Shown in pieces: positions 21,045-58,131 of a stretch of 64,000 bases of DNA (position 1 is the first letter of the stretch; each line of letters opens with the position of its first letter). The notes below the pieces were generated by a model, which saw nothing but the letters and a program-made list of their open reading frames with translations, searched no databases and was not told where the DNA came from. The translations under genes and the position numbers were made by a program. The stretch spans positions 124,001-188,000 of the forward strand of contig NZ_JAUDEA010000002.1 of the NCBI RefSeq assembly GCF_030372065.1. Reading direction: 5' to 3'. The stretch comes from Thermophilibacter provencensis. GTDB taxonomy: Bacteria > Actinomycetota > Coriobacteriia > Coriobacteriales > Atopobiaceae.

Positions 21045-21091
21045 CCCTCCCAAACGCACGTTTTTCTCGCCAGAACGTGGAGTTGGGAGGG
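21045..21091. repeat. intergenic hairpin, family A
   Basis: CCCTCCCAA (21045-21053) pairs with TTGGGAGGG (21083-21091), and ACGTT pairs with AACGT further in. The loop carries TTTCTCGCC. Another TTCTCGCC lies just upstream at about 21028. The element follows the kinase gene and could terminate its transcript or attenuate readthrough into the ABC genes. Confidence 0.75.
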
Positions 21092-21243: not shown

Positions 21244-21924
21244 ATGGACATTCTGCGAATTGAACACATCACCAAGACGTACGGCTCGGGTGACACCGCC
21301 GTGCGCGCGCTCGACGACGTGAGCTTCTCGGTGGCCGCGGGCGAGTTCGTGGCGATCATCGGCAGCTCGGGATCGGGCAAGTCGACGCTCTTGCACATGA
21401 TAGGCGGCGTGGACCGCCCCACATCCGGCACGGTGTTTCTGAACGGCGAGAACGTCTTTGAGCGCTCGGACGAGCAGCTCGCGGTGTTTAGGCGCCGCGA
21501 GGTGGGGCTGGTCTACCAGTTCTACAACCTCGTGCCGGTGCTCGACGTGGTGGAGAACATGTGCCTGCCCGTGCTCATGGACGGACGCGCCGTCAACGAG
21601 AAGCGCCTCACGGGACTGCTGCACACGCTCGGCCTTGAGGGCCGCGAGCACCACCTGCCCAACCAGCTCTCCGGAGGCCAGCAGCAGCGCGTGGCAATTG
21701 GGCGCGCCCTCATGAACGCACCTGCCGTGGTGCTGGCCGACGAGCCGACCGGAAACCTCGACTCCAAGAACTCTGCCGAGATCATGGCCCTGCTGCGCAA
21801 GTCCAACCGAGAGCTCAGGCAGACGCTCATCGTGATCACGCACGACGAGGACATCGCGCTCACCGCGGACCGCGTGATCTCGCTCGAGGACGGCCGCATC
21901 GCCTCCGACACAAGGGAGAGGTAG
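21244..21924 (+). CDS. ABC transporter ATP-binding protein (LolD/BceA-type)
   Basis: 226 aa. All ATPase motifs are intact: GSSGSGKSTLLHMIGG Walker A, YQFYNLVPVLDVVENM around the Q-loop, QLSGGQQQRVAIGRAL signature, VLADEPTGNLDS Walker B and ITHDE switch. The start ATG 21244 has AAGGAGG five bases upstream, and a TAGAAT -10-like box lies at 21214-21219. It pairs with the FtsX permease that starts two bases after its stop. With the upstream two-component genes this makes a four-gene module of the kind that senses and expels or detoxifies cell-envelope-active peptides; that function is inferred from context. Confidence 0.93.
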   Translation: MDILRIEHITKTYGSGDTAVRALDDVSFSVAAGEFVAIIGSSGSGKSTLLHMIGGVDRPTSGTVFLNGENVFERSDEQLAVFRRREVGLVYQFYNLVPVLDVVENMCLPVLMDGRAVNEKRLTGLLHTLGLEGREHHLPNQLSGGQQQRVAIGRALMNAPAVVLADEPTGNLDSKNSAEIMALLRKSNRELRQTLIVITHDEDIALTADRVISLEDGRIASDTRER

Positions 21925-21926
21925 CC

Positions 21927-24900
21927 ATGGCCGCAAAGCATCTGCGTGATTCAATTGGGGACAGACCCCTTTTGAATCATCGCCCTAATGATTCAAAAGG
22001 GGTCTGTCCCCAATTGAATCACAACGTGTTCACGAGGTTCACGGTGCGCTCGCTCAGGGCAAACCGCGTGCGGACCACGGTCACGATCGTGGGCGTCGCG
22101 CTCGCGACGGGCCTGCTCATGGCCGTGCTCGCCAGCGTGACGAGCCTGCACGCCGCCATCGTGAACTACATGCGCTCCATAGACGGCGTCTGGCAGGAGT
22201 CCTTCGACTACACCGACGACGCCACGCTCGGCAACCTCCGCACGCTCGCCGGCGACCACCTCGACCGCCTTGCCACCCGCCGCGACCTCGGCGCTGTGGC
22301 GCTCTCGGAGGAGAACGCCGAGTACGCTGGCGCCTACCTTGGCATCTATGACCTGCCCGCGGAGAGCGCGAGCACCCCGCGCGCGGCGGGAGACACCGAC
22401 TACGCGGTCTACCCCGCCCCGGAGCTCGACGAGGGGCGCCTTCCCGAGAAGCCCGGAGAGATCGCGCTCCCCGCGTACCTGCGCGGCGAGACGCTCGTCT
22501 CCGGGGCGTCGCAGCTCTCCGGCGTTAACGGCGGCGCCACCTCGGCGGGCGAGATCGAGCTTGGGAGCGAGGTCACGCTTGCCGCCGGCCGGCGCGTGTG
22601 GGCGAGCGAGCCGCAGACCCCCATCAAGTCCGGTGCCCTGTTCCAAGTTGAGTACAGCTACGAGACCGGCGAGGACGGCTCCATCAACGAGGGCGAGACG
22701 GTCCTCGAGACCCTGGCCGACGTCGGCGAGGCGCGCACCTACACCGTGGTCGGCTTCGTGAGCACCAGCTATCAAGACGGCAACGTGGCCTACGTCAGCC
22801 CCGACGAGCCGGCCATGACCGCCTCCGGAAGCGCCGTGGGCAACGCGTTCTTCTCGACCACCGGATATACGAGCGAGAACGAGCTCGACCAGCTCATGGT
22901 GCGTCTCCTCGGCGAGGACGGCAGCTGGGCAACCAACTCCTCCCTGCTCACGTACCAGGGGCTCGACACGGGGCGCCAGATCACCACCTCGCTCGTTCTC
23001 TTCGCGGGCGTGCTCGCCGCGGTGATCGTGGTGGCGGCCGTCTCGCTCATCTCCAATGCGTTCAGGATCTCCATCTCGGAGCGCACGCGGCAGTTCGGCC
23101 TGCTGGCATCGCTCGGCGCCTCGCGCCGGCAGCTCAGGCGCACGGTCTACGTGGAGGCAGGCATCATCGGGCTCATCGGCATCCCGATCGGCGTGGCGCT
23201 CGGCATTGGCGGCGCGGCCGTGGCCTTTGCGCTCACCGCTGAGGGCTGGTCCATGATCGTGGGCAACGGCGTCACGGTGGGCCTCGTGCTCCGGCCGCTC
23301 GACGCGGTGGCGGCCATCGCACTCGGCATCCTCGCGCTTCTGGTGAGCGCGCTCGCGCCCTCGCTGCGCGCGAGCCGCGTCTCCGCCGTGGACGCCATCC
23401 GGCAGTCGCAGGACGTGCGACCGAGCAGGCGGCTCCTGCGCGTGTTCCGGCGCCGCCACACCGCGATGGACGACTTCTCGGCGAACGGGCGCCGCCCGCG
23501 CGGGATGGCTGCGCGCCTTGGCGGCATGCCGGCGTTTCTCGCCCGCCGCACGCTCGCCGTCTCTGCCGGCAAGTCCCGTGCGGCCGCGATGGCGCTCGCC
23601 GTCTCCGTGGCGCTGCTCGTGACGGCCGGGCTCGTGTCGGACTACCTGAGGGGCACGACGAGCTACATCGACTACGGCGGCAGCGCCGACATGCAGATGT
23701 GGGTCTCCATGTCCGAGACCTCGAGCGAGCTCGCAGACTCCCCTGCCGCCGTCAACGTGAACGACATCACGGCGGACATCGCAAAGGTGAGCGGCGTCAA
23801 GGAGGGCAGCGCGAGCGGCCTCGTGCGCACCTACGGCTCCGTGCACGTGGACCCCGCCGGCGTGAACTGGGATGCGGTGGACGCCTATGACGCGAACCCG
23901 CCCAACGGAAGCTGCTTCAAGCTCGACCGCAACGGCTATGGCAGCGCTGACTTCTATCTCGTAGACGACGCCACCTGGCGTGCGCTCGCGTCCGACCTCG
24001 GCCTCTCCGGAGACGCCACGGACCCCGAGCACGTCTCCTGCGTGGCCTTCAATCGCGTGAGCGTCAAAAACGGGAGCACGTACGGTGCCGTTGAGCCCTT
24101 CACGGGAAGCGACGGAACGCTCGATGTGCTGCTGCCCGACCTCAAGGACAACCAGTGGCTCGCCATGAGCGACGACGGCAGCGTCTACGGGCTGCTCGAG
24201 CGTGACGAGAAGACCAACGAGGTGACGTTCGTCTCGCCTGCCTCTGATCTGGGACTCAAGACGATGAGCGTGCCCGTGGTCGCCTACACCGACAACCTGG
24301 GAGAGAGCTTTCCCATCGGCAGCGCCATGATGGACCAGACCACAGGGCTCACGCTCGTGATGCCGGCGAGCGCCGTCTTTGGGAGCGAGCTCGAGGGCGC
24401 GATGAGCACGTCGATCATCCAGTACTTCGCGAGCTTCGCGGAGGGCGCTGACGAGAACGCCGTCATCGAGGGCATCCAGAAGGCGCACGGCGCGCGCGGC
24501 GACATCGACACCGTGACCATCAACAACCTGCGCGAGTCGCTGCGCGAATACAACGCGATGATCTTCACCGTGAACGTCTTCCTCTATTGCTTCATTGCGA
24601 TCACGATGGCGATTGCCGTGGCAAACGTCTTCAACACCATTGCCTCTGGCCTCATGCTGCGCACGCGCGAGTTTGCGACGCTGCAGTCCGTGGGCATGGG
24701 CAGGCGCGCGTTCCGCCGGATGATCTTCCTTGAGTGCGCGGACTTCGCGGTCAAGGGCCTTGTGGGCGGCGTGGCGCTGGCGACGCTCGTGAACTGGGGC
24801 TTCTTTGCGGCGCTCTCGAACTCCGTCTCCACGCTCGCCTTTGAGATGCCGTGGGGCCACGTGGCGCTGGCGTTTGCCGTGGTTGCCGTCGTGCTCGCCG

Positions 24901-24974
24901 CGAGCGCTGGCTACGCGCTGCACAAGACGCACGCGCTGAACCTCGTGGAGGCCTTGCGCGCTGACGTGCTGTAA
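21927..24974 (+). CDS. FtsX-like ABC permease with palindrome-encoded N-terminus
   Basis: 1015 aa, start ATG 21927 with GAGAGG just upstream. Residues about 7-32 are translated from the long palindrome at 21946-22022 and look foreign; the natural N-terminus seems to be NVFTRFTVRSLRANRVRTT. After that come one helix, a first outer domain (about 75-345), three helices with SERTRQFGLLASLGASRRQL, a basic linker, a fifth helix, a second outer domain (about 570-860) and three C-terminal helices containing TREFATLQSVGMGRRAFRRM. This is a duplicated 4+4 FtsX layout. GTG 22026 would restore the natural start but has no ribosome site. A hairpin terminator follows at 25001. Confidence 0.9.
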   Translation: MAAKHLRDSIGDRPLLNHRPNDSKGVCPQLNHNVFTRFTVRSLRANRVRTTVTIVGVALATGLLMAVLASVTSLHAAIVNYMRSIDGVWQESFDYTDDATLGNLRTLAGDHLDRLATRRDLGAVALSEENAEYAGAYLGIYDLPAESASTPRAAGDTDYAVYPAPELDEGRLPEKPGEIALPAYLRGETLVSGASQLSGVNGGATSAGEIELGSEVTLAAGRRVWASEPQTPIKSGALFQVEYSYETGEDGSINEGETVLETLADVGEARTYTVVGFVSTSYQDGNVAYVSPDEPAMTASGSAVGNAFFSTTGYTSENELDQLMVRLLGEDGSWATNSSLLTYQGLDTGRQITTSLVLFAGVLAAVIVVAAVSLISNAFRISISERTRQFGLLASLGASRRQLRRTVYVEAGIIGLIGIPIGVALGIGGAAVAFALTAEGWSMIVGNGVTVGLVLRPLDAVAAIALGILALLVSALAPSLRASRVSAVDAIRQSQDVRPSRRLLRVFRRRHTAMDDFSANGRRPRGMAARLGGMPAFLARRTLAVSAGKSRAAAMALAVSVALLVTAGLVSDYLRGTTSYIDYGGSADMQMWVSMSETSSELADSPAAVNVNDITADIAKVSGVKEGSASGLVRTYGSVHVDPAGVNWDAVDAYDANPPNGSCFKLDRNGYGSADFYLVDDATWRALASDLGLSGDATDPEHVSCVAFNRVSVKNGSTYGAVEPFTGSDGTLDVLLPDLKDNQWLAMSDDGSVYGLLERDEKTNEVTFVSPASDLGLKTMSVPVVAYTDNLGESFPIGSAMMDQTTGLTLVMPASAVFGSELEGAMSTSIIQYFASFAEGADENAVIEGIQKAHGARGDIDTVTINNLRESLREYNAMIFTVNVFLYCFIAITMAIAVANVFNTIASGLMLRTREFATLQSVGMGRRAFRRMIFLECADFAVKGLVGGVALATLVNWGFFAALSNSVSTLAFEMPWGHVALAFAVVAVVLAASAGYALHKTHALNLVEALRADVL
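21946..22022. repeat. 77-bp perfect palindrome inside a coding region
   Basis: Two perfectly complementary 35-base arms (21946-21980 and 21988-22022) flank a 7-base spacer. The arms contain AATTGGGGACAGACCCC, a core widely seen in dispersed palindromic elements of bacteria. The element begins 19 bases after the A of the permease start codon, has no stop codon in that frame and leaves the frame open. Confidence 0.95.
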
Positions 24975-32272: not shown

Positions 32273-32491
32273 ATGAGAAAGTCATTCAAGCTCGACGAGA
32301 TCGACTGCGCCAACTGCGCCCGCAAGCTTCAGGACGAGCTCGCGTCGATTGACGGCGTGGACGCGGTGTCCGTTAACTTCCTGACGCAAAAGCTCACGCT
32401 CACGGCCGCCGACGACCGCTTTGACGACGTGCTCCAGCGCGTCGTTGCCCGCACGGCCCAAATCGAACCCGACTGCGACATCGTCTGCTAA
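32273..32491 (+). CDS. heavy-metal-associated (HMA) domain protein
   Basis: 72 aa, ATG 32273 with AAAGGA upstream. A free-standing metal-binding domain with the CxxC motif in IDCANCARKLQDEL near residue 11, and the ferredoxin-like fold pattern GVDAVSVNFLTQKLTL. It probably delivers metal to, or regulates, the ATPase encoded next, which lacks its own N-terminal HMA domain. It has a second Cys pair at the extreme C-terminus (PDCDIVC), possibly an extra binding site. The stop codon overlaps the first bases of a long inverted repeat. Confidence 0.9.
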   Translation: MRKSFKLDEIDCANCARKLQDELASIDGVDAVSVNFLTQKLTLTAADDRFDDVLQRVVARTAQIEPDCDIVC

Positions 32492-32609
32492 TTGGGGACG
32501 TGTTTTTTTGCTCAGAGTTTTTGGGACAGGTTACGGGCGCGCGGCGGAGCGTGCACCAGGTAGCCAAAACCTGTCCCAAATTCTCTGAGAGAAAAAACAC
32601 GTCCCAATT
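32490..32609. repeat. 120-bp inverted repeat (REP-like) within the metal operon
   Basis: The left arm begins AATTGGGGACGTGTTTTTTT and continues through CAGAG and GGGACAGGTT to 32532. The right arm (about 32568-32609) reads AACCTGTCCC, CTCTGAG and ends CACGTCCCAATT. The arms match with a few differences and enclose about 35 bases. It sits between the HMA gene and the ATPase gene and would form a strong hairpin in their shared mRNA. Confidence 0.9.
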
Positions 32610-32636
32610 TGACAGCCAACATCGAGGGAGCACGTT

Positions 32637-44804: not shown

Positions 44805-44860
44805 GACCCTCCCAAACCTACGGACCCTCCCCCTAAAACGTAGGTTTGGGAGGGTCTTCT
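44805..44860 (+). terminator. family A hairpin acting as terminator
   Basis: GACCCTCCCAAACCTACG (44805-44822) is perfectly inverted at CGTAGGTTTGGGAGGGTC (44839-44856), followed by TTCTTGTCTT. It lies just after the hydroxylase gene. It is the cleanest member of family A. Confidence 0.85.
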
Positions 44861-44869
44861 TGTCTTACG

Positions 44870-44917
44870 CCCTCCCAAACCTACGTTTCTGGCGAGAAGA
44901 TCGTGGGTTTGGGAGGG
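44870..44917. repeat. second family A hairpin in tandem
   Basis: CCCTCCCAAACCTACG (from 44870) pairs with CGTGGGTTTGGGAGGG (to 44917) with one mismatch. The loop contains GGCGAGAAGA. It follows the previous family A hairpin by 13 bases. Confidence 0.8.
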
Positions 44918-49072: not shown

Positions 49073-49131
49073 ATGACAATCTACCCTGTCACCTTTGTCA
49101 TCATGACAATGGTGACAGGGTAGATTGTCAT
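49073..49131. repeat. 59-bp REP-like palindrome
   Basis: Two 29-base arms, 49073-49101 and 49103-49131, are complementary except at one position and separated by a single base. The core is CTACCCTGTCACC. The right arm shares 17 bases with 21142-21158. It lies between the release-factor-like gene and the tautomerase gene, inside the leader of the latter. Confidence 0.92.
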
Positions 49132-57678: not shown

Positions 57679-57689
57679 TCGAAAGTTCA

Positions 57690-57765
57690 TGGAGCGGGCT
57701 ACGGGGTTCGAACCCGCGACCTCAACCTTGGCAAGGTTGCGCGCTACCAACTGCGCTAAGCCCGC
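57690..57765 (-). tRNA. tRNA-Gly(GCC), copy 1
   Basis: Acceptor GCGGGCT, D arm GCGC...GCGC, anticodon loop TTGCCAA (GCC), T arm GCGGGTTCGAACCCCGT, encoded CCA. Identical to the copy at 58014-58089. Confidence 0.96.
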
Positions 57766-57778
57766 GACGCAAGGAGAT

Positions 57779-57807
57779 ATATTACGGGAACCTTCCCCGG
57801 AATGCAA
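57779..57807 (-). promoter_or_regulatory. tRNA-Gly copy 1 promoter
   Basis: On the minus strand TTGCAT (57802-57807), 17-base spacer, TAATAT (57779-57784), preceded by CGAAAATTGCCCC. Confidence 0.8.
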
Positions 57808-58003: not shown

Positions 58004-58013
58004 CGAAGCTTCA

Positions 58014-58089
58014 TGGAGCGGGCTACGGGGTTCGAACCCGCGACCTCAACCTTGGCAAGGTTGCGCGCTACCAACTGCGCTAAGCCCGC
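58014..58089 (-). tRNA. tRNA-Gly(GCC), copy 2
   Basis: Same sequence as copy 1, including encoded CCA; part of the flank on the 3' side (TTCATGGAGC on the plus strand) is also shared. Confidence 0.96.
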
Positions 58090-58102
58090 AAAAGCAAGGG
58101 AT

Positions 58103-58131
58103 ACTATACGGGGCGAGCGTGCCGCGCGCAA
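58103..58131 (-). promoter_or_regulatory. tRNA-Gly copy 2 promoter
   Basis: On the minus strand TTGCGC (58126-58131), 17-base spacer, TATAGT (58103-58108), with TTGGGGTTCTCGC upstream. Confidence 0.78.

Follow-up and report, generated by a model that had tools for sequence, protein, structure and literature searches.

The window, a 64,000-nucleotide stretch of an Olsenella/Thermophilibacter genome (G000; 2.23 Mb in 35 contigs, 94.7% complete), carries a perfect palindrome in the first codons of an ABC transporter permease gene. Comparison across the genus suggests that the palindrome occupies one of a set of old, fixed REP slots, whose contents have probably been swapped in place in step with allele changes of the RAYT transposases, only in-frame versions surviving where a slot lies inside a gene.

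The palindrome spans positions 21946–22022 of the window. According to the repeat search, it consists of two 35-nt arms that are 100% complementary, with 7 nt between them. The left arm (21946–21980, plus strand) represents a REP unit of the GATTCAA family with the core GGGGACAGACCCC, and the right arm (21988–22022, minus strand) is the same unit inverted, both being assigned from the repeat search and from copies in the genome. The 7-nt spacer, to which no strand is assigned, lies at 21981–21987. Each arm is a hairpin in its own right (TGATTCAA-TT-GGGG-ACAGA-CCCC-TT-TTGAATCA), a point missed by the first-pass annotation of the window. The predicted RNA fold of the region reaches −107.2 kcal/mol, compared with a mean of −64.9 kcal/mol for shuffled sequences (z = −9.6; 0 of 200 shuffles), which rules out a chance palindrome. 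An Rfam search of the palindrome returned no family at the gathering score, and only generic hairpin matches were seen below the threshold. The left arm starts 19 nt past the A of the permease ATG (21927). The sequence and the list of open reading frames indicate that the permease frame stays open through the palindrome to 24974, with NVFTRFTVRSL resuming at 22023; by inspection, only one of the three frames of the REPIN is open. The position in the first codons of the permease, the perfect arms, and the open frame, all described in the annotation, are thus confirmed by the repeat search and the ORF analysis.

The host gene encodes an FtsX-type ABC permease of 1015 aa whose reading frame runs through the palindrome (21927–24974, plus strand; Pfam FtsX, E = 8.1e-29). 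Pfam assignments place it downstream of genes for a histidine kinase and an ABC transporter ATPase, the latter lying immediately upstream (21244–21924, plus strand; Pfam ABC_tran, E = 1.6e-34). The sequence and ortholog comparison point to a Shine-Dalgarno-like GGGAGAGG (21914–21921, plus strand) just 5′ of the ATPase stop codon, and a similar purine-rich stretch precedes the permease start in most same-genus orthologs. A permease start at the GTG following the palindrome was also considered and judged less likely, because most orthologs have the purine-rich stretch ahead of the upstream ATG, none precedes that GTG, and very different inserts all keep the frame and its openness.

Because the arms are hairpins with dispersed single units, and PF01797 genes are flanked by palindromes, we classify the element on sequence grounds as a REP doublet (REPIN-like) of the RAYT-associated REPs. 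The annotation had proposed a search for further copies, and a pattern search recovered approximately 15 sites in the genome with dispersed single units (33–36 nt) related to the arms. The core GGGACWGNCMC gave 64 forward and 62 reverse matches at more than 60 sites, the reversed control giving 6 and 6. Many of these units are of the form ATGTTACGAAGGGACTGTCCCTTCGTAACAT, and further doublets with a period of ~40 nt occur elsewhere in the genome. The element resembles published REP/REPIN systems and their RAYT (TnpA-REP) genes (PMC3116915, PMC8266576) in its short palindromic units, which occur as singlets and inverted doublets and are mostly intergenic, and in REP copies that flank PF01797 transposase genes. 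As in those systems, palindromic units within the range of 20–40 nt are present in many dispersed copies, the inverted doublet has a short spacer (35+7+35 nt), and codon-model scoring puts 36 of the 38 sites examined in the window's genome outside the in-frame intragenic class. The GATTCAA family flanks a PF01797 RAYT gene in G016, G030, and G001, and not in the window's genome. Classical REPs are defined by a GTAG/GTGG or CGTC tetranucleotide (PMC3686654, PMC3733652). Unlike the classical REPs (PMC3116915, PMC8266576), the arm has no 5′ GTAG/GTGG (or CGTC) tetranucleotide, its unit starting with GTGATTC, and what is conserved is a GGGACAG-type core with exchangeable arms. Since the tetranucleotide is absent, the element is, strictly speaking, best filed as REP-like and not in the classical GTAG/CGTC classes.

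We defined the permease slot as the stretch from the ATG to the conserved VFxRF/Y motif, before the first membrane helix, and compared it in 29 species of the genus. The group includes named Thermophilibacter and Olsenella, and several of the genomes are MAGs; REP families were called by motif, some calls being completed by eye. An in-frame palindrome is present in 14 of the 29 species and belongs to at least 5 families. GATTCAA-type doublets occur in G000, G016, and G030, together with a GGTCAA version in G006 and a singlet in G009. The slot is of the GTGCAAA type in G018, G022, G012, and G017, the CTTGACA type in G015, the GTGGAAA type in G003 and G002, and the ATGAAAA type in G008 and G010. 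In the remaining 15 species the linker, for example KGEKDRALAAAVAPRG, is not palindromic, and more distant orthologs mostly show a direct start, M(G/S)IFTRF. The REPIN of G016 lies at the same codon as that of the window and is ~97% identical over the palindrome, in a permease that is only 54% identical. The permease-body tree implies 9 or more changes of slot family, and several slot contents are found among five short-branch sisters. The three nearest relatives of the window's permease (G028, G001, and G024) are all without a slot palindrome.

Tandem permease paralogs also carry slot palindromes. In two genomes (L075 and L080), both tandem copies contain the same REPIN family, with the central spacer of the second copy inverted relative to the first, and in Olsenella sp. 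An285 (L074, 5860–6010) a further palindromic insert lies in the N-terminal slot of the second permease (GTGTCCCAAAGAGGGACAGGACACTTTTGGG...). Repeats of GGCGAGAAGGAC (GEKD), a motif that is repeated in the window too, make up the linker of L081 and of other orthologs without a palindrome; these repeats are possibly another repeat family in the same slot. Outside the genus, Collinsella tanakaei ET10 (L107) has a TGACATTGGGGACTGTCCCCAATGTCA palindrome at the ATPase-permease junction, just upstream of the permease start.

A second in-frame slot lies in the gene of a U32 peptidase (with DUF3656, by Pfam), where a REP is found at residue 500 of the open frame in the window's genome. It emerged from a census that covered parts of two genomes, G000 and G022, and used an iteratively trained codon model, an earlier model with a 150-nt window having been too weak. 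Two of 38 REP sites in G000 are in frame inside genes, namely those in the permease and the U32 peptidase. An independent sample from G022 gave 1 in-frame site of 25, at the same U32 position. Across the genus, the U32 linker carries a palindrome in 19 of 30 species, from at least 6 families and in some cases degenerate, and two U32 paralogs of G013 carry two different REP families. In-frame REPs are therefore rare yet recur at the same two places.

The families found in the two slots tend to follow the RAYT genes of the same genome. A profile search identified PF01797 genes in 28 of 31 genomes of the genus. The annotation had also proposed looking for a REP-associated transposase, and the window's genome has three PF01797 RAYT genes, each flanked by palindromes of its own family (TTACGAA-type, TGACAAAGGTGACAGGG-type, and GGGACGTGTTTTT-type). 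The U32 slot holds the same family as the flanks of a RAYT in that genome in 12 of 19 cases, against 3.9 expected (shuffle p ~2e-5), and the permease slot does so in 8 of 14, against 2.9 expected (shuffle p ~4e-4); phylogeny was handled in these tests only by dropping two near-duplicate species, which left the results similar. Slots with no match to a detected RAYT family number 6 of 14 for the permease and 7 of 19 for U32. One RAYT locus adjoins glnQ in 19 genomes (L037, L211, L205, L200, L256, L260, L290, and others). Its alleles are ~50–60% identical between types and mostly have a REP family each of their own; the neighbouring glnQ genes are ~91–95% identical. In G006, GGTCAA replaces GATTCAA on every side of the slot arms, and the REPs beside the G006 RAYT likewise carry GGTCAA. 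The window's genome has the TTACGAA RAYT allele, yet many of its REPs are still of the GATTCAA family, which may place it midway between two RAYT/REP regimes. Among its PF01797 matches, none of the three detected RAYTs is flanked by GATTCAA in the 94.7%-complete assembly, and the cognate RAYT may be missing from the assembly, or loss or replacement may have removed it.

Sixteen other REP sites of the window's genome were followed to their orthologous positions in G028, G001, G003, and G016, giving 63 comparisons. A REP was present in 41 of these, against 1 of 30 at the orthologous positions of REP-free control junctions of the window (Fisher p = 4e-9). Of the 41 occupied positions, 27 held a different family by hand-completed scoring, or 30 by automatic scoring. 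The 60-nt flanks at occupied sites were alike, with an identity of 0.902 in same-family pairs and 0.907 in different-family pairs, and the change is therefore confined to the REP. This bears on the alternative that homologous recombination of whole loci alone carries slot contents between species, with no swapping in place. Such transfer would fit the mosaic tract of the window's permease, described below, and the likeness of the ATPase and linker region across species with differing permease bodies. However, it does not account for flanks that are equally alike whether or not the family differs, and transfer alone would not make slot families track the resident RAYT. We consider this alternative unlikely.

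The slots might also be preferred RAYT targets, from which a REP is precisely excised and which are later refilled by another family, an account that differs from replacement of the resident REP in the molecular step only. Relatives in the IS200/IS605 group insert site-specifically and excise cleanly, which fits this account, and the element boundaries coincide across species. By inspection, however, no shared target motif is apparent at the compared sites. Sites also tend to stay singlet or doublet when the family changes: in partly hand-scored data, 45 of 68 pairs kept their state where 35.8 were expected (p = 0.018), which we count as weak evidence. Refilling of this kind is possible but somewhat doubtful. 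Most likely, judging from the compared sequences, either RAYTs drive the replacement of REPs where one already lies, or preferred sites lose their REP precisely and are refilled. The REPIN would belong to a family putatively mobilised by RAYT transposases (Y1/HUH-type, PF01797); upon a change of RAYT allele, new REPs would take over the positions of the resident ones, either by overwriting them or by precise loss and refilling, and inside genes only stop-free, frame-keeping versions would survive.

A different reading attributes the permease slot to function, with the hairpin, which starts 15–19 nt after the AUG, acting as a selected regulator of permease translation or stability (e.g., an RNase III site) whose sequence turns over. 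It would explain why palindromes recur at the same place, tandem permease paralogs included, and it is consistent with the very stable RNA hairpin and with a Collinsella ortholog in which a GGGACTGTCCC palindrome closely precedes the start. Nevertheless, the linker is non-palindromic in 15 of 29 species, with no obvious substitute, the second slot lies in the middle of the U32 gene, and the same turnover is seen at intergenic sites. The annotation had proposed that the hairpin could strongly reduce permease translation. The predicted cost of opening the region from −20 to +12 is 13.9 kcal/mol in the window's genome versus 10.5–12.7 kcal/mol in the three palindrome-free closest relatives, a small change in start-site accessibility that suggests that the hairpin pairs mostly within itself and does little to mask the permease start. 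A regulatory role thus appears improbable, and the REPIN is probably tolerated by the permease, not required.

The last step in the history of the window copy was probably a short tract of homologous recombination. The permease body and ATPase of the window's genome are closest to those of G028, G001, and G024. A tract of ~130 bp round the REPIN (21932–22063, plus strand; boundaries approximate, set by eye), comprising an extra Ala codon, MAAKHLR, and then GTG and AGG codons, matches REPIN-bearing species, e.g., G016, and both of its flanks match the palindrome-free G001/G028. Since the neighbouring codons too are of the REPIN-bearing type, and fresh transposition would have left them as they were, recombination is the likelier event, and MAAKHLR together with the REPIN would have been brought in from a G016-like relative. 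The annotation had instead taken the perfect arms to imply a recent insertion. Its view of a mobile insertion holds in that the element is a REP of mobile type, lies in frame, is absent from the three closest relatives, and has related copies and RAYTs in the genome; it does not hold as an isolated recent event. A REPIN newly transposed into the permease start, in the window lineage only, would agree with the three empty orthologs and the perfect arms. The annotation itself had held that the same palindrome at the same place in distant species would speak against it, and a near-identical REPIN is found at the same codon in G016, with REPs of the same or other families filling the slot in 12 more species. 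Considering also the adjoining codons of REPIN-bearing type and the lack of a RAYT with GATTCAA-family flanks in this genome, we regard a recent de novo insertion as very doubtful.

In the 'orthoswitch' model of Nunvar et al. (2013), old REPs persist elsewhere and decay as new ones spread (PMC3686654). Our data resemble this model in that syntenic RAYT genes of related strains are flanked by different REP classes, and differ from it in that the new-family REPs occupy the old positions. Different REPs have been reported at about the same site in recB of X. campestris and X. oryzae (PMC3733652). Intragenic REPs and Rickettsia palindromic elements are also palindromic repeats translated in frame, as 10–30 residues (PMC3733652). 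In-frame insertion into coding genes is likewise seen here, in the permease and the U32 peptidase. Unlike those elements, the slots described here are common to 14 and 19 species and hold several families, and almost no other examined genes carry inserts; a spread over many unrelated genes was not observed among the sites of the window's genome (2 of 38 in frame). The two in-frame protein slots, and the replacement of contents at fixed positions, also set these elements apart from the classical REPs (PMC3116915, PMC8266576). A search over part of the literature found no earlier description of REPs being replaced at fixed orthologous positions.

The 2013 model predicts that old families remain and decay after a switch; if fixed slots with exchangeable contents do track the RAYT allele, then RAYTs would act where a REP is already present. 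In a broader version, these genomes share slots of ancient origin, two of which are read into protein, and the family of a new glnQ-locus RAYT allele overwrites the resident REPs genome-wide, so that a transposase and its repeats would convert an existing repeat network rather than found a new one; we judge this version evenly balanced. Close relatives would offer a natural before-and-after series for testing RAYT function, and at the two in-frame slots protein linker residues would have been replaced wholesale by mobile DNA with the frame preserved.

Several other repeats accompany the permease element. An intergenic, imperfect inverted pair, GGGGACGTGTTTTTTT...GGGACAGG, lies at 32476–32624 of the window, and its family also flanks the RAYT on contig C33 of the same genome (L038). 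An intergenic doublet, TGACAATCTACCCTGTCACC/GGTGACAGGGTAGATTGTCA, is located at 49073–49131, its family also flanking the RAYT on contig C32 (L036). A separate palindromic repeat family, CCCTCCCAAACCTACG...TTCTGGCGAGAA, is present at 44807–44917 and 21045–21075, and a direct repeat of 109 nt, 89% identical, occupies 57680–57788 and 58004–58112. Contig C3 of G022 (T. provencensis) has ~150 REP matches; among the matches listed, minus-strand REPs occur only below ~0.7 Mb, which may reflect the direction of replication.
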